Below, one piece after another: positions 2,901 to 37,780 of a stretch of 37,780 nt of DNA (position 1 is its first letter; every line of letters begins with the position of its first letter). Source of the stretch: a virus; the IMG/VR virus record IMGVR_UViG_3300037042_002121, positions 1 to 37,780 of that record; one strand, 5' to 3'. Made by a program: the position numbers and the translations under genes. Below the pieces are notes generated by a model that was given only the letters and a program-made list of their open reading frames with translations, did no database searches and was not told the origin of the DNA.

Positions 2901-3424
2901 GGCATCGACCTCCACCACGCAGGCCCGACGATGCGCCGCGCAACGTGCCCGAGCTGCTCGATGCTGAACGAACCCGCGCCCTGCTCTCGTGCCGCACGCA
3001 GCTCCGCGAAGTCGACGCACCATTGAACGCCGAGCCAGTCGAGCACGACAACCGACACGCCGCCGACGTCGTCGAAGTGCGCGAGCGTCGACCACTCAAC
3101 ATCGGCATGCCTGCCCGCAGTCGGTGCGCCGAGAGACTGCGCAAAGTTCCACCGCTCAGTGCTGCAGGTCTTGGCCTCGACTGCAGCGCAGCGCGAACCG
3201 ACGACGCCGATGAAGTCGACCGATGCGCGCGCCTGCCAACACGCCGGGAACGTGGTGCGACCGCGCGCGTCGACTCGCGTGCTGCCCATGACCCGCGCCT
3301 CTGTCGGCACGCGCACAATCCACGCCACGCCCGCAGCCGTCAGTCGCGCATGGTACGCATCGAGCGCACGCTCCCACGCATCGCCCGCCGCCTTTGCGCT
3401 GCGTCCGCGTTGTTCGTTGCTCAT
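2897..3424 (-). CDS. RecU-like Holliday junction resolvase / PD-(D/E)XK nuclease
   Basis: This 175-residue protein matches the layout of RecU-type resolvases. An N-terminal GR..G..WE helix (about 7-20) is followed by RVPTEARVMG, then the nuclease core ASVDFIGV (Asp70), and AAVEAKT (Glu83, Lys85) as the D...ExK metal site. It would resolve branched DNA produced by replication and recombination so that the terminase gets linear duplex concatemers. It overlaps both neighbours by four bases (ATGA). The catalytic triad is clearly visible; the specific resolvase role, rather than another PD-(D/E)XK function, is inferred from the RecU-like N-terminus and the recombination context. Confidence 0.65.
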   Translation of the reverse strand: MSNEQRGRSAKAAGDAWERALDAYHARLTAAGVAWIVRVPTEARVMGSTRVDARGRTTFPACWQARASVDFIGVVGSRCAAVEAKTCSTERWNFAQSLGAPTAGRHADVEWSTLAHFDDVGGVSVVVLDWLGVQWCVDFAELRAAREQGAGSFSIEQLGHVARRIVGPAWWRSMP

Positions 3425-5884: not shown

Positions 5885-6817
5885 TCAGAAAACCATGCCG
5901 CCCGCTGCGGCGATGCTGTCGCGCTGCGCGTCGGTCAGCGCGTCCTCTGCGACGTAACCCTCGCCGGGCACGAGCACCATGCGTGCGCCGCCTGCGCGCG
6001 CTGATGCCTCGATGCCTGCGGCGAACTGATGGTTCACCTGTGCGCCCTGCGGCGCGCCCTTGCCCGCGCGTGGTCGCTGCGGTGCTCGCGTTGCGTCGTG
6101 CACGCCCTCGGCAATGATGCGGCGCAACAGCGCAAGCGAGGGACCGCCGCCGCCTGCGACCTCTGCAGCCCTGTCGATGCACCTCGTGACGTACTCTGCG
6201 CCACGCTCTGCGACTGCGACCTGCAGCGCATCGACGTCGAGCGCGCCCACTGCAATCGGCGCAGCGCCAGACCGACCACGCAGTGAGAGTCGCCAACGCT
6301 CAAGCACGCCGGGCAACCCATCGGGCACCGTCGATGCGGTCGCGCGCGAACGTGATGCGTCAGCATCACGTGTCACGTCCTGTACTGTCACGTCATGTAC
6401 TGTACTGTCAGGCGTTACGTCACGTGACGTAACGTTACGCGCCGTTACGTCACGTGACGTAACGTTACGCGGCGTTACTGTAACGGGTTCGGGCGTTACG
6501 CTGCGCGCATCGCGGTGTCTGCGCTGACGCTCTGCGCCTGTAGGGTCGCGCTGGTAGTCCGACCACGCTGCGACCCTGTAGCCCTCGCCGTCGACAACGA
6601 GCAGACCCTCGCTCGTGAGATGCGCAAGGGCTTGATCCCACGCATCAACCGACGGACCCCACAGATGCGCCATGACGCGCGGCGACAGCTCGCGTGCTGC
6701 GATATACCCCTCGCCATTCTTCGCGCGGCAAACGACCGCAGGCCACGCCCACGCATGCCCGGATGCGGCGAGCCTGCCGTCCATCGGCAAGTCGGTGTCG
6801 ATACGAACCCACGCCAT
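5885..6817 (-). CDS. replication initiator with winged-helix N-terminus and internal iterons
   Basis: The 310-residue protein starts MAWVRIDTDLPMDGRLAASG after a good Shine-Dalgarno (GGAGG). The first 110 residues resemble the N-terminal winged-helix domain of phage replication proteins of the DnaD/DnaT-like type (helices, then EGYIAARELS, then LTSEGLLVVDGEGYRVAAW). A low-complexity linker (about 115-155) of repeated R-N/D-V-T units is encoded by DNA iterons. A C-terminal domain (from about 170) follows. Placing iterons inside the initiator gene is the arrangement of lambda O with its origin, so the protein probably binds its own coding DNA to start replication. SSB lies upstream and the loader-like ATPase downstream. 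Confidence 0.7.
   Translation of the reverse strand: MAWVRIDTDLPMDGRLAASGHAWAWPAVVCRAKNGEGYIAARELSPRVMAHLWGPSVDAWDQALAHLTSEGLLVVDGEGYRVAAWSDYQRDPTGAERQRRHRDARSVTPEPVTVTPRNVTSRDVTARNVTSRDVTPDSTVHDVTVQDVTRDADASRSRATASTVPDGLPGVLERWRLSLRGRSGAAPIAVGALDVDALQVAVAERGAEYVTRCIDRAAEVAGGGGPSLALLRRIIAEGVHDATRAPQRPRAGKGAPQGAQVNHQFAAGIEASARAGGARMVLVPGEGYVAEDALTDAQRDSIAAAGGMVF
6401..6501. repeat. iteron array, probable replication origin
   Basis: Two identical 29-bp units (6413-6441 and 6443-6471, period 30) each hold a perfect 22-bp palindrome whose half-site is CGTTACGTCAC. A third, shorter palindrome (CGTTAC-T-GTAACG) starts at 6473 and another GCGTTACG at 6494. On the other flank the units become TACTGTCA and CACGTCA. 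The period of ten codons keeps the reading frame, giving repeated RNVTSRDVTA in the initiator. Iterons within an initiator gene are a known phage origin design. Confidence 0.7.
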
Positions 6818-6883: not shown

Positions 6884-7330
6884 TCAGAACGGGATCGGGT
6901 CGTCACCGATGTCGCTGTCCTGAACTTGCGTTGCCGCAGTCGAACGCGGTGCGCTCGACGTCCACTGCTCGACGCGCGGTGCGCGGTCGTGCTCTGTGGT
7001 GCGACCTCCGAGGAACACGACGCGGTCTGCGCGAACCTCGTAGACCGTGCGCTTGTCGCCGCCGTTGGTCTCGTATTCGCGCGACTCGTAACTGCCTTCG
7101 ATGTATACGCTGCGCCCTTTGTCGAGATGCTGCCCGCAGGTCTCGGCCTGCTTGCCCCACACCTGAACTTTGTGCCACGTCGTGCGCTCGTTTTGCTGCC
7201 CGTCCTTGCTCGTCCACTTGTCGCTCGTGGCGACGCTCATGCTCGCGACCGCCTGCCCGTTGCTCGTGTATCGCACCTCGGGCTTGGCGCCGAGATTGCC
7301 GACGATGATGACGCGATTGACCGTGCTCAT
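6884..7330 (-). CDS. ssb: single-stranded DNA-binding protein
   Basis: The start is the ATG overlapping the upstream stop, giving 148 residues beginning MSTVNRVIIVGNLGAKPEVRY, a textbook SSB N-terminus. The OB fold spans about 1-112 (VASMSVATSDKW, WHKVQVWGKQAE, GRSVYIEGSYESREY, YEVRADRVVFLGGR). The disordered tail ends in the acidic tip DDPIPF, which in SSBs recruits partner enzymes. It coats single-stranded DNA in replication and supports RecT-type annealing. The gene lies directly before the initiator gene. Confidence 0.95.
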   Translation of the reverse strand: MSTVNRVIIVGNLGAKPEVRYTSNGQAVASMSVATSDKWTSKDGQQNERTTWHKVQVWGKQAETCGQHLDKGRSVYIEGSYESREYETNGGDKRTVYEVRADRVVFLGGRTTEHDRAPRVEQWTSSAPRSTAATQVQDSDIGDDPIPF

Positions 7331-8001: not shown

Positions 8002-8328
8002 TCAGTAGCCGCCTTCGCCAAGCTCGCGCTCCACATAGCGCGTCTCCGCATCAGTGAGCAACACATCTCGCCACGTGCCGCGCCGCTTCATCCACGCGCG
8101 CCCGATCTCCCAACCCTCTGGTTCGCCCGGGCAATCCCAACGCACGCAACAGCCGGGGCTCCAGTCGGCCTCGACGATGATGTCCACGGGTTCATCATCG
8201 GGGCCACGGTAAATCGTGACGTCGTAACCGCTCGGCGTCACACGTTGCGCAGAGCGGCGACCGTCAACGCAAAGTCGGTTCAATCGCTCACGACGCCCCG
8301 CCAAGTGAAACTCCGTAACCTTTCGCAT
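8002..8328 (-). CDS. hypothetical protein
   Basis: The 108-residue product begins MRKVTEFHLAGRRERLNRL at the ATG that follows AGGAGACGAACG. It contains a beta-rich middle (SGYDVTIYRGPDDEPVDIIVEADW) and Cys at about 58, 59 and 64. No family is recognised. It is the first gene downstream of hammerhead 3, so its mRNA would start with the cleaved 5' leader. Confidence 0.6.
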   Translation of the reverse strand: MRKVTEFHLAGRRERLNRLCVDGRRSAQRVTPSGYDVTIYRGPDDEPVDIIVEADWSPGCCVRWDCPGEPEGWEIGRAWMKRRGTWRDVLLTDAETRYVERELGEGGY

Positions 8329-8342
8329 CGTTCGTCTCCTGC

Positions 8343-8356
8343 GCAGCCCTCGCCGC
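8343..8356 (-). promoter_or_regulatory. leader hairpin 7
   Basis: The RNA GCGGC-GAGG-GCUGC has a 5-bp stem containing a G-U pair. It lies between the hammerhead cleavage product start (UGGGAUGCAACGACG) and the AGGAG Shine-Dalgarno of the next gene. Confidence 0.65.
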
Positions 8357-8368
8357 GCGTCGTTGCAT

Positions 8369-8415
8369 CCCAGACCCCGCAGGGTTTCGACCCGCGCCCG
8401 GGTCTCGTCAGTGGG
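8369..8415 (-). ncRNA. hammerhead ribozyme 3 (type I, minimal)
   Basis: Minus-strand RNA order: CCCA (stem I 5' side, 8415-8412), CUGACGA (8411-8405), stem II GACCCG-GGCG-CGGGUC, then GAA, then stem III ACCC-UGCG-GGGU, then C (8373) and UGGG (stem I 3' side, 8372-8369). All invariant hammerhead core positions are present, with H17 = C and expected self-cleavage between 8373 and 8372. The stem III loop UGCG is a UNCG tetraloop. The stop codon of the upstream gene (UGA, 8410-8408) is inside CUGACGA. The family is known in phages; activity here is inferred. Confidence 0.88.
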
Positions 8416-8629
8416 CGGCGCTAACCTTCTCGACTGCGACATTCTCCACCGTGAACACGAAGCACAGTGCCGTCGCCATGTTCATGCGCAGGCCGCGAGA
8501 CACCGCAGTCGCTCGCACAGACTGCGCAATCTCTTCGACGCTCTTCCCGTTGCTGAGATGGCTCTCGACCGAGCGGCACAGCGCGTTGTTAGAGAGCAGG
8601 AGGTCCATCATCTTGCCATCAATGTTCAT
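8408..8629 (-). CDS. small early protein, promoter-proximal
   Basis: The 73-residue product begins MNIDGKMMDLLLSNNALCRSV and ends ENVAVEKVSAAH. Residues 50-63 (MATALCFVFTVENV) are hydrophobic but short. No family is recognised. It is the first and only gene between promoter P4 and hammerhead 3, so cleavage would release it as a monocistronic mRNA. Its last codons and stop form part of the ribozyme, so translation to the end must unfold the ribozyme core. Confidence 0.65.
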   Translation of the reverse strand: MNIDGKMMDLLLSNNALCRSVESHLSNGKSVEEIAQSVRATAVSRGLRMNMATALCFVFTVENVAVEKVSAAH

Positions 8630-8645
8630 CGTCTTGGCCTTTCTT

Positions 8646-8661
8646 CGCTGCCCCTGCAGCG
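8646..8661 (-). promoter_or_regulatory. leader hairpin 6
   Basis: The RNA CGCUGC-AGGG-GCAGCG is a 6-bp stem in the 5' leader of the P4 transcript, followed by AAGAAAGGCCAAGACG and the ATG. Confidence 0.75.
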
Positions 8662-8677
8662 CCTCGTTGATGTAGTG

Positions 8678-8706
8678 ACCTTACCCCAAGCCGTTTTCGC
8701 TGTCAA
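8678..8706 (-). promoter_or_regulatory. promoter P4
   Basis: -35 TTGACA, spacer 17, -10 TAAGGT, preceded by the AT-rich GTAAAAAGTTTT that also precedes P1 and P2. The spacer differs from P1-P3 (no CTGCG/CGCAG inverted repeat), so it may lack the operator the others share. The upstream gene's stop lies in AAACCGTTGGCGCAGTAGG, an element also found before P1. Confidence 0.8.
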
Positions 8707-8760
8707 AAACTTTTTACAACCTGCGCGATGAAAGCTGCTCGGCCTACTGCGCCAACGGTT

Positions 8761-9198
8761 TCAGCGCGGAGGTGCGCCGTCGAGGTCACCGGGCGCGAAG
8801 TAGTCTGGCGACGTCCACTCTGCAGAACTGCTCGACGCAGGCGCAGGCGCAGCGACCTTGAACGCCTTGACGTCGCGCACGCGCGTCACGCGCAGCCTGT
8901 CGACCTCGGGCACCGACAGGACGCAACGCGCGGCGAGCCTGTCGAGCGCGATGCGCTGCGCCTCGATGCGGTCAAGCGCGTCGCTCTGCATGTCGTAGCA
9001 CGCCGCCGCGCTGTCTGCGTTGCGCATCCCCAGCTCTGCGACGCAACCCTGCGTCGCTTGCTCGATGCTGCGCCCGACGCTCTCGCCGTTCTGCGCGCCG
9101 ACAAGAAACGTCAGCGACGCGCCCGCGCACATGCCGAGGATGATGCTTACCCAATCGATGCCGCGCGGCTCGGGAGTGCCTACCGTGATGTCGCTCAT
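8761..9198 (-). CDS. small membrane-anchored protein
   Basis: The 145-residue product has one transmembrane segment at about 16-35 (WVSIILGMCAGASLTFLVGA). A helical, Ala/Arg/Asp-rich region with coiled-coil character follows (ALDRIEAQRIALDRLAARC, about 73-91), then a flexible tail. No family is recognised. Its ATG overlaps the previous stop (ATGA), and it is the last of four coupled genes running from hammerhead 2 to P4. A membrane role early in infection (for example superinfection exclusion) is possible but is a guess. Confidence 0.6.
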   Translation of the reverse strand: MSDITVGTPEPRGIDWVSIILGMCAGASLTFLVGAQNGESVGRSIEQATQGCVAELGMRNADSAAACYDMQSDALDRIEAQRIALDRLAARCVLSVPEVDRLRVTRVRDVKAFKVAAPAPASSSSAEWTSPDYFAPGDLDGAPPR

Positions 9199-9416
9199 GG
9201 CTGCACCTCAGAGGTGAGACGGGCGAGGTTGGCGTGCATGTCTGCGGCGATGCGGTCGCACACTGCGCCATCCATAAAACCGATGGCCTGCCCAAGCGTC
9301 ATGCCTGCGCCGAGGATGTCGAGCAGGTCGACATACGACACGCCCTTTGCCTGCGCGTATGCAGAGAGGCGCTTGCAGACCTTGTCGTGGTGCTGGCTCC
9401 AGTCGTTGTACTTCAT
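9195..9416 (-). CDS. hypothetical small protein
   Basis: The 73-residue product begins MKYNDWSQHHDKVCKRLSAYAQAKGVSYVDLL and is mainly helical and acidic/polar, with LDILGAGMTLGQAIGFMDG in the middle. It is coupled to both neighbours by ATGA overlaps. No function can be assigned. Confidence 0.6.
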   Translation of the reverse strand: MKYNDWSQHHDKVCKRLSAYAQAKGVSYVDLLDILGAGMTLGQAIGFMDGAVCDRIAADMHANLARLTSEVQP

Positions 9417-9649
9417 GCGCCCGCCTTTCCGTTGTCTCGAATCGTGACGAACTCGTGCCCGCTCTTCGGCGCGTAGACCGTGCGCCCGTGGAAGTCATCC
9501 CACCACATGGGCACGCCACGCAGGTTCTTGCGGTCAAGCAACATCGCCGCAACCTTGCGCGCCTGCTGTTCGGTGTCGCAGTGCTCAACCGTCTGCGCGT
9601 ACCTTGCGACCGCGTCGCCGAACTTGCGCACTGTGAATCGCTCGCTCAT
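9413..9649 (-). CDS. hypothetical small protein
   Basis: The start at the ATGA overlap gives 78 residues beginning MSERFTVRKFGDAVARYAQ. Three segments, EHCDTEQQARKVAAMLLD, GVPMWWDDFHGR and VYAPKSGHEFVTIRDN, suggest a small alpha/beta fold. It is unassigned and lies within the four-gene unit downstream of hammerhead 2. Confidence 0.6.
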   Translation of the reverse strand: MSERFTVRKFGDAVARYAQTVEHCDTEQQARKVAAMLLDRKNLRGVPMWWDDFHGRTVYAPKSGHEFVTIRDNGKAGA

Positions 9650-9876
9650 TGAATGGCCTCTTTGATCGACTTGGCATGCGCAATCTGCTGCCGCATGAAC
9701 CGCAGCCACCACTCCGAGTCGCTCGCGAGCATGTAGCACCCGGACGCGCGCGCGGCGGAGAGCAGATGCTGAACGAGCCTGCGCTCCGAGACCGTGAGGT
9801 TATCGAGCACGGCATCAACTGCCTCGTCGACCTCGCGGATAATGTGCTCGTCATCAGCGAATTTCCTGATCGTCAT
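9646..9876 (-). CDS. hypothetical small acidic/helical protein
   Basis: The 76-residue product begins MTIRKFADDEHIIREVDEAVDAVL. The ATG follows a strong GGAGG Shine-Dalgarno at seven bases, preceded by leader hairpin 5, which supports this start over the longer upstream-open frame. No family is recognised. It is the first gene of the RNA that would be left after hammerhead 2 cleavage. Confidence 0.65.
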   Translation of the reverse strand: MTIRKFADDEHIIREVDEAVDAVLDNLTVSERRLVQHLLSAARASGCYMLASDSEWWLRFMRQQIAHAKSIKEAIQ

Positions 9877-9890
9877 ATTCGTTCCTCCTG

Positions 9891-9906
9891 CGCTGCGCCT
9901 GCAGCG
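9891..9906 (-). promoter_or_regulatory. leader hairpin 5
   Basis: The RNA CGCUGC-AGGC-GCAGCG has a 6-bp stem and is followed at once by CAGGAGG, the Shine-Dalgarno. It is in the leader generated by hammerhead 2. Confidence 0.75.
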
Positions 9907-9917
9907 CGTCGTTGCAT

Positions 9918-9964
9918 CCCAGACCCCGTAGGGTTTCGACCCGCGCCCGGGTCTCGTCAGTGGG
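9918..9964 (-). ncRNA. hammerhead ribozyme 2 (type I, minimal)
   Basis: Order on the RNA: CCCA (9964-9961), CUGACGA (9960-9954), stem II GACCCG-GGCG-CGGGUC, GAA, stem III ACCC-UACG-GGGU, C at 9922, then UGGG (9921-9918) pairing with CCCA. Predicted cleavage is between 9922 and 9921. The stem III loop UACG is a UNCG loop different from the other two copies. The stop codon of the upstream gene directly precedes stem I. Confidence 0.9.
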
Positions 9965-10168
9965 TTAGACGCTCGGCTCTTCGTACGCTCGAAAGAACTT
10001 GACGATGCGACCGACCTCAGTCGAGCCGATGACGAAAACGTGGAACTCTTCCTCGTCGCTGAGCTTGCACCACGATGCGCCGTTGATTTCGGCGTCGTCA
10101 CCATGGCGCATCGTCTTGAGCTTGCTGATGTCGTCTGCGGTCAGGCCCAATCGGTTCGTCTTGCTCAT
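9965..10168 (-). CDS. small early protein, promoter-proximal
   Basis: The 67-residue product begins MSKTNRLGLTADDISKLKTM and ends EVGRIVKFFRAYEEPSV. Its charged, compact sequence is unassigned. It is the only gene between promoter P3 and hammerhead 2 and shares the AAAGGCAGAGACG-ATG leader end with the first genes of P1 and P2. The pattern predicts a short, separate mRNA. Confidence 0.65.
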   Translation of the reverse strand: MSKTNRLGLTADDISKLKTMRHGDDAEINGASWCKLSDEEEFHVFVIGSTEVGRIVKFFRAYEEPSV

Positions 10169-10184
10169 CGTCTCTGCCTTTCTT

Positions 10185-10200
10185 CGCTGCCCCTGCAGCG
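10185..10200 (-). promoter_or_regulatory. leader hairpin 4
   Basis: The RNA CGCUGC-AGGG-GCAGCG is in the P3 leader, 16 bases before the ATG, with AAAGGCAGAG in between. Confidence 0.75.
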
Positions 10201-10216
10201 CGTCGTTGATGAATGA

Positions 10217-10245
10217 ACCTTACTGCAGGACCGCGCGGTTGTCTA
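10217..10245 (-). promoter_or_regulatory. promoter P3
   Basis: -35 TAGACA (one base from TTGACA), spacer 17, -10 TAAGGT, with an upstream AT tract. The GTCGCTTTTCTGTAAAAA upstream block is shared with P1 and P2. The spacer holds CCGCGCGG and CTGCAG. Confidence 0.7.
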
Positions 10246-10282
10246 ATTTTTTTTACAGAAAAGCGACACGACGCCGCACGTC

Positions 10283-10513
10283 CTACTGCGGCAACGACTT
10301 GCGCGCGCGCTGCACGCCGACGCCCCACGCCGCGAGCACCTGCGAGACGTGAACGCCTGCGAGCTGCGCAAGTCCGAACCAGAAGCGAGGGCTCGGCACT
10401 GCGCCCTTGCGCCAACGGTACAGGCTCGCGCGCGTTGCGCCGCACTCGGCTGCGAGCTTGTTCCAACCGCCAGCCGTGACGACGGCTGCGTCGATGATGT
10501 CTGCAGGCGTCAT
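10283..10513 (-). CDS. small helix-turn-helix protein
   Basis: The 76-residue protein contains a Cro/CI-type helix-turn-helix: GWNKLAAECGATRASLYRWRKGAVPSPRFWFGLAQLAGV (about 16-54) has the two-helix spacing, with the recognition helix near ATRASLYRWRKG. It overlaps the RecT-like gene by ATGA. As the only clear small DNA-binding regulator in the early region it is the best candidate for a protein acting on the repeated early promoters, but this is inference. Its stop codon lies in CCGCAGTAGG, matching the sequence around the P1/P2 -10 boxes. Confidence 0.65.
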   Translation of the reverse strand: MTPADIIDAAVVTAGGWNKLAAECGATRASLYRWRKGAVPSPRFWFGLAQLAGVHVSQVLAAWGVGVQRARKSLPQ

Positions 10514-11322
10514 TCGGGAAACTCCCCCGTCACCTCTGCGACGTGCAGTGCGAGAGCGCGCGCGCCCGGTTCGGTGCGCAGGTAGTCGACCGCCTTGCGC
10601 AGACGGTCGAGCGGCACGCTGTCGAGGTCGAGCCCCTGCGTGGCCTGCAATCGTTGCTCGATGTACCCGGGCGCGTGGTCGCTGATGCCGAGCAGCTCGC
10701 CGATGATGGCGCGACGTTCGTCGCGTTCGTCGACGATGTCGACCGTCACGTCCTGCGACATGCCGACAGGCTGCGACGCAGCCACAGTCACGACAGGCGC
10801 GACGGCGGGCGCAGGCACGTCGAGCGGTTGCGCGAGTTCGTCCGGGTCATAGATGCCCGCAACTAGGTCCGGGTAGACGATGCGCGCGAGGGCCGACGCG
10901 CAGCGCGCACGCAGCATCGCCTCGGGATACAGGCGCCATCCTTGCCCGCTTGCAAGCCCTGCGCGCTGCGCCTGCTCAATGGTCCACGTCAACGTCGTCG
11001 GCTCGGTGTCACCCTTGCGCCGCGTGGTGTACGTGGCGCGCTGCGCGGTCGACTCGACGAGCCGCCATTCCACGCAGTCGGGTTGCCGTCGCACGAGCGC
11101 AACCGTGGCGTCTGCGGTCAATGTCGTCTTGCCCTTAATTATGGCAATCATGCGCAGCGATTGCATCGGCGCGAGGCCCAGCTCTCGCCCCGCCATGATG
11201 ACCATGAGCGCATCTTGCGGTCGCCCGCGCAGTGCGTCGGGCGCAAGGCTCGACGCCGCCGCGATGAGCGCAGTGCCGCCGAGCGGGTCCGCGTTCCTGA
11301 TGATGTCTGTGGTGATGTTCAC
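10510..11322 (-). CDS. RecT-family single-strand annealing protein
   Basis: A GTG start, seven bases after GGAGG, gives 270 residues. The central part fits the RecT family of phage annealing proteins: MAGRELGLAPMQSLRMIAIIKGKTTLTADATVALVR (about 43-78), LTWTIEQAQRAGL, YPEAMLRARCASALARIVYPDLVAGIYDPDEL (about 132-163). A variable Pro/Ala linker and a C-terminal helical domain follow. Such proteins anneal complementary strands at replication forks, usually with an exonuclease; no exonuclease is recognised beside it. SSB and a RecU-like resolvase are in the same region. The gene begins downstream of hammerhead 1. Confidence 0.75.
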   Translation of the reverse strand: MNITTDIIRNADPLGGTALIAAASSLAPDALRGRPQDALMVIMAGRELGLAPMQSLRMIAIIKGKTTLTADATVALVRRQPDCVEWRLVESTAQRATYTTRRKGDTEPTTLTWTIEQAQRAGLASGQGWRLYPEAMLRARCASALARIVYPDLVAGIYDPDELAQPLDVPAPAVAPVVTVAASQPVGMSQDVTVDIVDERDERRAIIGELLGISDHAPGYIEQRLQATQGLDLDSVPLDRLRKAVDYLRTEPGARALALHVAEVTGEFPE

Positions 11323-11336
11323 TGCCGTACCTCCTG

Positions 11337-11352
11337 CGCCGCGCCTGCGGCG
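11337..11352 (-). promoter_or_regulatory. leader hairpin 3
   Basis: The RNA CGCCGC-AGGC-GCGGCG differs from hairpin 5 by paired substitutions on both arms (U to C and A to G) that keep pairing. CAGGAGG, the Shine-Dalgarno of the RecT-like gene, follows directly. Confidence 0.8.
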
Positions 11353-11363
11353 TGTCGTTGCAT

Positions 11364-11412
11364 CCCAGACGCCCGAAGGCGTTTCGACCCGCGCCCGGGT
11401 CTCGTCAGTGGG
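11364..11412 (-). ncRNA. hammerhead ribozyme 1 (type I, minimal)
   Basis: Order on the RNA: CCCA (11412-11409), CUGACGA (11408-11402), stem II GACCCG-GGCG-CGGGUC, GAA, stem III ACGCC-UUCG-GGCGU, C at 11368, UGGG (11367-11364). Stem III is one base pair longer than in the other copies and its bases co-vary, closing a UUCG loop. Predicted cleavage is between 11368 and 11367. The stop codon of the upstream gene directly precedes stem I. Confidence 0.9.
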
Positions 11413-11807: not shown

Positions 11808-12182
11808 TCAATACTCCTGCGGCAGCATGAGCGTCACGCCCACGTCCTGCACCGCGTAGAGCTTGACGGACTGCAGCGGGAAGTCCGTGAACGGGACGCG
11901 CTGCGTGGCGAGCTTGTTGCCGTTGCCGTCGTCGCAGACTGCCACGGCGCCGCTGCCCGTCTTGTTGCGCGTCAGCGTCCAGACTTGGAACGGCTCGCGC
12001 CGCACCTTGGCGTTGCAGCGGTGCGACAGGATCAACGTCACGAGCCAATAACACGCCGCGTTGTCGCACAGAAACTTGACGCCCTCCGTCATGTTGGCAA
12101 ACGCGTTGATCTTGTAGTGGTCGCCGCCGCCGTCGAAGTGCGCCAGCGTGTTCTCGATGGTCTCTGCGTTCATGTCGTTCAT
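11808..12182 (-). CDS. DUF6876-like protein
   Basis: The 124-residue protein has the layout I associate with DUF6876: LAHFDGGGDHYKINAF, MTEGVKFLCDNAACYWLVTLI, FQVWTLTRNKTGSGAVAVCDDGNGN, then FPLQSVKLYAVQD. The function of that family is unknown. A second ATG three codons in is an alternative start. It is the first gene of the P1 transcript, and P2 begins directly behind it without a ribozyme in between. Confidence 0.65.
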   Translation of the reverse strand: MNDMNAETIENTLAHFDGGGDHYKINAFANMTEGVKFLCDNAACYWLVTLILSHRCNAKVRREPFQVWTLTRNKTGSGAVAVCDDGNGNKLATQRVPFTDFPLQSVKLYAVQDVGVTLMLPQEY

Positions 12183-35235: not shown

Positions 35236-37614
35236 TCAGTAAGAGATGACGACGACGATGCCGTCTGCGCCCGCGCCGCCTGCGCCACTGGTACCACCGC
35301 CGCCACCGCCGCCGCCGCCCGCGCCGTAAAGCCCGCCGTCGCCGCCGTTGCCGCCGTTGGTCCCGCTCATAGTCGCGCCGCCGCCGCCGCCTGCGGAACC
35401 GGGCCCGTAGATGCCCGAGCTTGTACCGTTGCCGCCCGCCGTGCCGTTGACCGCAACCCCGCTCACGCCTGCCGTGCCGCCCGTTGCCGTCGCGACATTC
35501 CACGATGCCGCGCCGCCTGTGCCGCCGTTGTAAGGCGAGTTCTGCGCGCTCCCGCCGCCGCCGCCGCCCGGACACGCAATCGACGGCCCCGGAGATCCGC
35601 CGACCTGAGCGCCGCCGAACCCGCCGCCGCCGTCCTGTGATGCCGCCTGCCCGAATGCGCCAGCGCCGCCCGCATTAGCTGCGCCGAGGTTGCTCGCTCC
35701 AGTGCCCGCGCCGCCGCCCGAGGCTCGCACCAGCGCGCCGAACGAACTCAGCCCGCCCGGAGAGCCGGGGAGGCCCGACAGGTTGGCGCCCGCCCACGGA
35801 CCGACAGGCGCGCCACCCGCGCCGCCCGTGCCAACTGTCACAGTCGCTGACGCAAGCGCCGAGACTGAGACGACGCAGTCGACGTAAGCGCCGCCGCCGC
35901 CGCCCGCGCCGCCGCACTTGCGCGAGGCCGTGGTGGTACCACCAGCCGAGCCCGAACCGCCGCCGCCGCCCGCGCCGATGGCGATGATGCGCGCAGTCGT
36001 CGCGCCGCTAGGCTTGGTCCACGTGCCCGAGGACGCGAAGACTTGCACATCGACAGCGCCGCCGCCGCCACCACCACCGCTCACCGTCGTCCACGTAGGT
36101 GCGCCGCCGCCCGAACTGGTCAGCACCTGACCCGCCGCGCCGCTGGTCGCCGTCGAGAGAATCTCGCGGCCTGCCGTTGTGATGTCCGTGGCCGCAGCGG
36201 TGTCGACCCCCGTGAAGTACGCCACCTTGTCGGCCGCAGTCGTGACACCAGCCAGCGCGGTGAGCGTAGCGTCAGCCGCTTGAAACGCCGTGCTCGCCTG
36301 CGTCGCCGCAGTGCCGAGGCCGAGCGTGCCGCGAGCAGTCGCAGCGTCGGCATCGTCGAGCAGCGTGCGCGCGAACGCCGTCAGCGTGGCGAGCGCAGCC
36401 GTGCTCGCGCCCGTGTAGTAAGGCACGCGGTCTGCGGCAGGCGTGAGCCCATTGACGCTCGTCAACGGTGCACCGAGCAGCGCAGAGCCGCCCGCGTAGA
36501 ACGTCGTCGACGTGCCGACCTGCCAGCGACCATTGAGCGTCGCCGCTGTAGTCGGCGGCGCGATTCCGCCTGCGCTGTCGCTGATGCTGCAGCGTGTCAG
36601 CGGCGCGGTCGCGTTGTTCGTGATGCTGCCGAGAAACAGGCAGCGATCAAAGAGCACGAGGCCCGTAAAGCCTGCAGGAATGACGACGTTGCCCACCTCG
36701 CAGCCGACCACGTAGACGACACCGCTGATGGCGCCGAGGGTTAGACCGCCGAGTAGCTGGCACTGCTCGAAGCGGTGCACACCCGCGCCTGTCGTGCTCA
36801 CAGTCGTCAGACCCTCGATCTGTAGGCTGACGATGCGCGCGCGCACGACGTTGTTGCCGATGGTTAGACCGCGACTCGCAGACAGGCTCGCAATCGTGCC
36901 GCCGAAGTCGCCACCCTGCGGCCCGATAATGGCGATGTTGTTGCGCCCTGCAGGTATCGTCACCGTCGCGCCCGAGTAGGAGCCCGGTCCGACGATGACC
37001 TGACACGCAGGACCGACAGGCGTGGCGTCGATGGCGGTCTGGATGTCGCGCGTTGGCGACGCGGCGACGAGCCCGCCGTGCGCGAACTCCGAGAACGTCT
37101 GCGCGGGCAGCTCTTCGTATCGGTCGGTCAGACCCGTGACGAGCGTCGACCCTGCCGGGCCCGTTGCGCCCGCTGGCCCCTGCGCGCCCTGCGGCCCCTG
37201 CGCGCCGGGCTCGCCTTGCGGCCCCTGCTGCCCGACAATCTGCCCGGCATCAACCCACGTGAGCGCCTCGCTGTAAACCCACAGGTGCCCGCCGTCCTCA
37301 GTCACGACCCACGCGTCGCCGACCTCTTGCCCGCTCGACGGCAGGTCTGCGATGAGAGCTTTCGTGCCCTTGAGATCGAAGCTGTTGCCTGCCGGACCCT
37401 CGGCCCCTTGCGGCCCTGCCGGACCCTCGATGCCCTGCGGCCCTGCCGGACCGACCTCGCCTTGCGGCCCCGGATTTCCTTGCGGCCCGGGGTCGCCCTG
37501 CGCGCCGGGGTCGCCCTGCGGCCCCGGGTCGCCTTGCGGTCCCGCCGGTCCTGCCTCGCCTGCCGGTCCTTGCGGCCCGGGCATGCCGGGAAACTGCGTC
37601 GTGGTGCCCGCCAT
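35236..37614 (-). CDS. collagen-like tail fibre, version B, with polyglycine tip
   Basis: The complete 792-residue protein begins like version A ([20 protein letters not shown]). Parts in order: collagen-like repeats (about 8-75); a non-collagen domain ([16 protein letters not shown]... [11 protein letters not shown]) that replaces the RYATTS domain of version A; a short second collagen stretch; a beta-helix-like region; repeated TLGLGTAA and VTTAADKV segments (about 420-500); and a C-terminal glycine-rich domain from [21 protein letters not shown] to the end, with many GGGGG runs. Glycine-rich tips of this kind are known from fibre adhesins such as the gp38 type, where they pack as polyglycine helices. 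Receptor binding is inferred. Confidence 0.85.
36611..36737. repeat. exact direct repeat, right copy
   Basis: Identical over 127 bases to the first 127 bases of the window. To the right of it the two fibre versions remain co-linear for about 400 bases more, but with many substitutions. Confidence 0.9.
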
Positions 37615-37780
37615 TATTGCACGCGCCGCCAGTGAGCACAGACCTCGACATTCGACGCGAGGATTGCAGTGCCGCGCAGTGACACCGCCGTCATGCTCGT
37701 CGCGTTACTCACGACGCCACGCACTTCGATTGTCTTTGCAGTGCCCGCGTCAAGGCGAGGCGCATGCGTCGTTGTAGCGG
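37614..37780 (-). CDS. secreted protein, second copy (5' part outside window)
   Basis: The frame ends [11 protein letters not shown]-stop with TAATG overlap to fibre B, just like the secreted protein before fibre A, and contains [18 protein letters not shown]-type sequence. About 55 C-terminal codons are present. Differences from the other copy are few and mostly silent or conservative, which indicates recent divergence under selection for the protein. Confidence 0.85.

Follow-up and report, generated by a model that had tools for sequence, protein, structure and literature searches.

Three predicted type I hammerhead ribozymes between early-type genes of a virus record, and the promoter-like units that they close

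Closely spaced hammerhead ribozymes between phage genes have been described before. According to the sections of Perreault et al. 2011 (PMC3088659) considered here, individual genes or short blocks of genes in prophages have multiple hammerheads beside them that lie close to one another, and the processing of long phage transcripts is proposed. The systems described there are a triple in Agrobacterium tumefaciens and the sets of Azorhizobium caulinodans and Clostridium scindens; three tandem sets cut in vitro, and the Agrobacterium triple cut in E. coli as well. A 2017 review (PMC6155905) restates these findings on clustered hammerheads and calls their role open. We analyzed the virus record IMGVR_UViG_3300037042_002121 over its whole length of 37,780 nt (referred to as the window), in which three candidate hammerheads of type I lie within 3.05 kb on the minus strand. 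Several close hammerheads flanking phage genes are what the window shares with the prophage clusters, as far as these are covered in the sections considered, and the window is thus a further case of a kind that is already known. The preliminary description of this DNA had taken a set of three hammerheads between phage genes to be new; this is refuted by the active Agrobacterium triple and also undercut by many viral loci with several hammerheads and by the triple of Streptomyces phage R4. Judged from the sequence, the three type I hammerheads probably work in cis and would cut the polycistronic RNA of the early genes into separate messages.

The hammerheads of phage R4 are of type II (RF02276) and are likewise three within 1 kb and located between small phage genes (locus L172, NC_019414.1 47300-49300: Hammerhead_II at 682-758, 917-977 and 1600-1660 on the minus strand). 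They differ from those of the window in that they are circularly permuted, with stem II open, and belong to a cultured phage. The two have a single stretch of sequence in common, ACGCCUUCGGGCGUC in stem III of one of the copies. Phage R4 is a good experimental system for phage hammerheads. Type II hammerheads were also found in Streptomyces phage Yara (L174, MH019215.1), at about position 521 on the minus strand just before a Shine-Dalgarno sequence (SD) and ATG, a clean structural match that is missed at the Rfam cut-off, and in L173 (MW202801.1) at 8043-8104 on the minus strand, upstream of a phage gene. A search of the window for type II hammerheads found none.

Read in RNA sense, each of the three window copies consists of CCCA, CUGACGA, stem II with its loop (GACCCG-GGCG-CGGGUC), GAA, a stem III that begins with A and ends with U, a single C, and UGGG. 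The helices comprise 4, 6 and 4-5 bp; stem I is open-ended whereas stems II and III are closed by loops, which is the type I topology. The invariant core CUGANGA, GAAA and UH is present in this order in all three copies and in six further copies from the same clade. Hammerhead 3 (H3; 11364-11412, stem I CCCA/UGGG) stands directly after the TGA of a 94-aa gene, with the predicted cut at 11368/11367. Hammerhead 2 (H2; 9918-9964, predicted cut 9922/9921) stands directly after the TAA of a 67-aa gene. In hammerhead 1 (H1; 8369-8415, predicted cut 8373/8372) the UGA of the core CUGA (8408-8410) is itself the stop codon of a 73-aa gene. A C precedes the predicted cut at 8373, 9922 and 11368. All features that the preliminary description had listed for these three minus-strand sites were found. 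It had further pointed out that stem III varies while its pairing is kept: the pairing indeed holds, with ACCC/GGGU in two copies and ACGCC/GGCGU in one (loops UGCG, UACG and UUCG), but these are just two states. The copies are paralogues belonging to a repeat family of about 80 nt (D8), H1 and H2 sharing 93% over 80 nt, and the three are therefore not independent evidence.

A structural scan of the window for CUGANGA, GAA and UH with three stems of at least 3 bp each returned exactly three matches, the sites named above. In 300 dinucleotide shuffles the same scan gave five matches in total, one of them with at least 14 bp. Comparison with the Rfam hammerhead models, which had been suggested as a check, gave a divided result: the window has no match at gathering thresholds, but in E-value mode a 3.2-kb search has its sole significant matches at the three sites on the minus strand, all to Hammerhead_1 (RF00163), with 28.5, 26.0 and 27.9 bits and E-values that range from 3.7e-4 to 2.3e-3, the middle one being 5.7e-4. 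The window copies thus share core and type I topology with this family, whereas they have a 4-bp stem I and reach 26-28.5 bits as compared to the gathering score of 34. Matches to malK-III in the E-value search had E above 3 and were taken as chance.

Related loci were obtained via RecT and via a DNA pattern, namely L124 with three copies and L125, L126 and L195 with one each; L128 and L134 are near-identical to L126. Together with the window they make up a clade set of nine distinct copies. Across this set all core letters are invariant and 99 of 99 tested cells are paired, and stem I, stem II and the first pair of stem III are kept throughout. Changes on both sides of a pair were observed in 10 cells, compared to 2.5 in shuffles, at four stem II pairs. 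These compensatory changes in the relatives provide independent support for the hammerhead identity. Only the first stem III pair was counted, MAFFT having misaligned the length variants of this stem; inspected by eye, ACCC/GGGU, ACGCC/GGCGU and ACCGC/GCGGU all keep their pairing. For each of the eight clade sequences folded, the hammerhead coincides with the computed minimum or differs from it by no more than 0.3 kcal/mol. Loop II reads GGCG or GGCA in the clade and the tail past stem I reads A(U/A)GC, making a contact of two to three pairs feasible. Over 152 phage hammerheads the complementarity between loop II and tail exceeded that of all 200 permutations, a comparison that leaves relatedness in. 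Core, stems, the Hammerhead_1 match below the gathering score and the compensatory changes together support the assignment to type I made in the preliminary description. From this evidence the hammerhead identity of the three elements appears near certain and their activity likely.

The window elements stand on the coding strand between a stop codon and the next ribosome-binding site. For a wider view of hammerhead placement, IMG/VR loci were fetched by a hammerhead pattern favouring CTGACGAG, a non-random set in which copy numbers are lower bounds. The fetched loci, including the window, contain 167 hammerheads as compared to 2 in reversed sequence; after adding relatives and dropping repeats, 156 distinct hammerheads were kept for the later counts. 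They are spread over 95 locus-strands, 30 with at least two and 16 with at least three, and the maximum is eight in L018. The end of an upstream open reading frame falls at -15 to +3 of the core in 109 of 144 hammerheads, but only in 74 of 411 control CTGANGA sites. An SD with a start codon follows within 150 nt, at a median of 30 nt, in 113 of 139 hammerheads as compared to 30 of 139 in antisense. Nine loci (L018, L059, L071, L104, L013, L080, L086, L116 and L119) carry four to eight type I hammerheads each, all on one strand, and the interval between neighbours often corresponds to about one small gene. At Rfam gathering thresholds 0 matches were obtained in 11 hammerhead-bearing viral loci besides the window, and nothing was matched in eight of the nine many-copy loci, L080 being left out. 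Surveys at the Rfam cut-off therefore undercount type I hammerheads, as this cut-off missed all those in the window and in the eleven loci tested.

The closeness of stop codon and core also bears on a different role, in which real hammerheads would be under translational control: with the stop codon adjoining or lying inside the element, a terminating ribosome would block folding, and cutting would occur only if the upstream gene is untranslated. In four of the nine clade copies (H1 of the window, the L124 copy at 3361, L126 and L195) the UGA of the core is the stop codon. The same use was observed in 34 of 144 hammerheads of the wider set versus 39 of 411 controls, and the 109 upstream stops at -15 to +3 point in this direction as well. 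However, UGA is inherent in CUGA, so that the overlap is partly enforced, and in other copies the stop lies upstream of the core. We consider this regulation possible but rather unlikely.

Four aligned repeats (family D6) of the early-type block make up the promoter-like sites. Each has a TTGACA-like and a TAAGGT-like box separated by 17 nt as well as a leader, and all lie on the minus strand. P4 (12183-12256) has TTGACA at 12256-12251 and TAAGGT at 12233-12228, and its leader within the same interval contains CCACGACG, the hairpin CACTGC[AGAG]GCAGTG and GAAAGG. P3 (11698-11772) has TTGACA and TAGGGT followed by CAACGACG, the hairpin CGCTGC[AGGG]GCAGCG and GAAAGG. The same hairpin is found, each time with AGAAAGG, in P2 (10169-10245; TAGACA and TAAGGT, with CAACGACG) and in P1 (8630-8706; TTGACA and TAAGGT, with CAACGAGG). 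The 5' leaders predicted for the 3' cleavage products, also on the minus strand, all carry UGGGAUGCAACGAC. It is accompanied in product 3 (11323-11367) by the hairpin CGCCGC[AGGC]GCGGCG and the SD AGGAGG ahead of the recT-like gene, in product 2 (9877-9921) by GCGCUGC[AGGC]GCAGCGC and AGGAGG, and in product 1 (8329-8372) by GCGCGGC[GAGG]GCUGCGC and AGGAG. Promoter leaders and predicted post-cleavage leaders are thus alike, the former with CAACGA(C/G) or CCACGAC plus hairpin and the latter with CAACGAC plus hairpin.

In total, eleven hairpins with purine-rich tetraloops (AGGG, AGAG, AGGC, GAGG) precede the SDs of early genes from 12212 to 5848 on the minus strand, and none of this kind was found on the plus strand. 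Their stems covary, with 13 both-side cells as compared to 2.9 in shuffles; since the copies were picked by pairing, this evidence is only partly independent. Leader hairpins are also present at junctions lacking a promoter or ribozyme. The family is possibly the binding site of a regulator. A leader hairpin past the cut is not general in phage hammerheads, since it occurs in 12 of 57 leaders where 7 are expected from shuffles, and four of the 12 come from this clade; it is therefore a feature of this clade.

Promoter-like sites, hairpins and hammerheads recur as a unit in which a promoter is followed by a leader hairpin, a single small gene and a hammerhead, and then by either a leader hairpin with the next gene or the next promoter. 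In the window a hammerhead follows the gene behind three of the four promoter-like sites, that is the 94-aa gene behind P3 (11413-11697), the 67-aa gene behind P2 (9965-10168) and the 73-aa gene behind P1 (8408-8629), all on the minus strand and without assigned family. The minus-strand DUF6876 gene behind P4 (124 aa, 11808-12182) has no hammerhead after it in the window. Each of the nine hammerheads inspected in the clade stands at the end of the gene that comes first behind a promoter-like site: the layout is present three times in L124, where the next promoter directly follows the first hammerhead, and once each in L125, L126 and L195. The cargo proteins of the units are mostly unrelated. 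The relatives searched contain a homologue for just one of the three small genes, that of 73 aa; it lies in L125, is 62% identical and is likewise followed by a hammerhead. The preliminary description had mentioned neither leader hairpins nor promoter-like repeats, of which there are four, nor the regular order of promoter, gene and ribozyme. Compared to the sections of Perreault et al. 2011 considered, the likeness to promoter leaders, the shared leader hairpin and the rule of one gene per promoter appear only here. No description of the promoter-gene-ribozyme unit was found in the open-access literature, which is weak evidence of absence.

At two orthologous genes, promoter and hammerhead are exchanged for one another. 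In front of recT, the window, L126, L128 and L134 have a hammerhead with a hairpin leader, L130-L133 have a promoter-like region with a hairpin leader, and L125, L127 and L129 have the hairpin leader alone. The DUF6876 gene has promoter P4 in front in the window and a hammerhead in front in L124. These exchanges suggest that the leader belongs to the gene and that either element can supply the 5' end. They are the strongest comparative evidence that the cut would serve to make mRNA ends.

Ribozyme anatomy, placement, strand, leader likeness and conservation can be read from the sequence, and from these we infer cleavage, its timing and an effect on stability or translation. RNA polymerase would start at P3, P2 or P1, make the leader hairpin and one small gene, and read through the hammerhead into the next gene block, because no terminator is seen between them. 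Once transcribed, the hammerhead would fold, its loop II (GGCG) probably in contact with the UGC directly past stem I, and would cut after C17. The folded ribozyme stems, carrying a 2',3'-cyclic phosphate, would then form the end of the small gene's mRNA. For the block downstream a new 5'-OH end would arise, some 15 nt ahead of a hairpin and a ribosome-binding site that resemble the promoter leaders. In bacteria, 5'-dependent mRNA decay is slowed by a 5'-OH end and hairpin, and the same may hold for this phage. As an outcome, decay and translation of the promoter-proximal gene would be uncoupled from those of the following block while the promoter is still shared. That the hammerheads are spacers between early-type genes, as the preliminary description stated, is supported by the genes for a RecT-like annealing protein, SSB and an ATPase nearby; the placement fits cutting of early mRNA, and a role in its processing appears likely.

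Several observations weigh against this processing role. The Hammerhead_1 scores of the three sites fall short of the Rfam gathering cut-off, and H3 and H1 each have a competing fold that is equally stable. With a 4-bp stem I and a predicted loop contact of two Watson-Crick pairs and one wobble, the cut may be slow. A sigma-70 consensus scan called no promoter, the promoters being inferred from repetition only. Finally, recT has no hammerhead in front in L127 and L129-L133, and a hammerhead is therefore not essential for its expression.

A phage moron consists of a promoter, a gene and a terminator inserted between conserved genes. Measured against this general picture, the window units also have a promoter-like site of their own, and the small gene that goes with it, mostly a non-conserved one, is placed amid conserved early genes, but they carry a hammerhead where the terminator would be, so that transcription can continue; no U-run indicative of a moron-type terminator was found after the three small genes. 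We tentatively propose, at somewhat less than even confidence, that the hammerhead closes an exchangeable moron-like cassette in which the ribozyme replaces the terminator, the promoter is lent to the genes behind and cleavage would provide a promoter-like leader. The basis for this is that the nine clade hammerheads fit the layout with mostly different cargo genes.

Exchange could also mean that the repeats are mainly patches of DNA homology for cassette swapping, ribozyme activity being secondary or lost. This agrees with the 93% likeness of H1 and H2 over 80 nt and with the hammerhead of L125, which is letter-identical to H2 of the window, yet neighbouring homologous proteins are just 62-63% identical. 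The 73-aa gene with its hammerhead is moreover placed differently relative to recT in the window and in L125. A DNA patch alone, however, accounts neither for compensatory changes around a core that stays the same nor for the strictly sense orientation and the placement relative to stop codon and SD, and we regard it as improbable. A reading of the elements as 3'-end stem-loops, or as structures of the terminator type, with a chance likeness to hammerheads is very improbable: they are positioned where morons usually carry terminators and their stems II and III are stable GC hairpins, but no U-run follows them and unpaired core bases would not stay conserved.

The record codes for terminase, portal, capsid and head-protease proteins, and its early-type block on the minus strand for a RecT-like protein, SSB and an IstB-like ATPase. 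Past H3, the first gene is that of the RecT-like single-stranded DNA-annealing protein (10510-11322; phrog_561, E 1.4e-30), followed downstream by a repressor-like gene (10283-10513) with its own leader hairpin at 10543. H2 is followed by a block of four genes (76, 78, 73 and 145 aa; 8761-9876), and H1 by a 108-aa gene (8002-8328), then a 206-aa gene, SSB (6884-7330) and more replication-type genes, all on the minus strand. No cultured relatives of the early region were found by a distant DNA search, and none by a protein search with the large terminase. A RecT search of genome_contigs gave distant loci only, from Acetobacteraceae and actinobacteria in most cases and with no more than 42% identity, and none of these loci has a type I hammerhead. 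Near both record ends (1-1422 and 36611-37780) collagen-like repeats are coded, with near-duplicate stretches at 1-300/36611-36910 (90%) and 1183-1422/37541-37780 (95%), which could stem either from a duplication of fibre genes or from record ends that overlap imperfectly. Short palindromic direct repeats (CGTTACGTCACGTGACGTAACG) at 6413-6472, within a 310-aa gene, may be a site of replication or of binding.

What deserves further work is the regular cassette, together with the replacement of promoter by ribozyme and vice versa. This clade offers a testable answer to why phages keep many hammerheads: cleavage may rebuild a leader of the promoter type, and either a promoter or a hammerhead could then stand in front of a gene.

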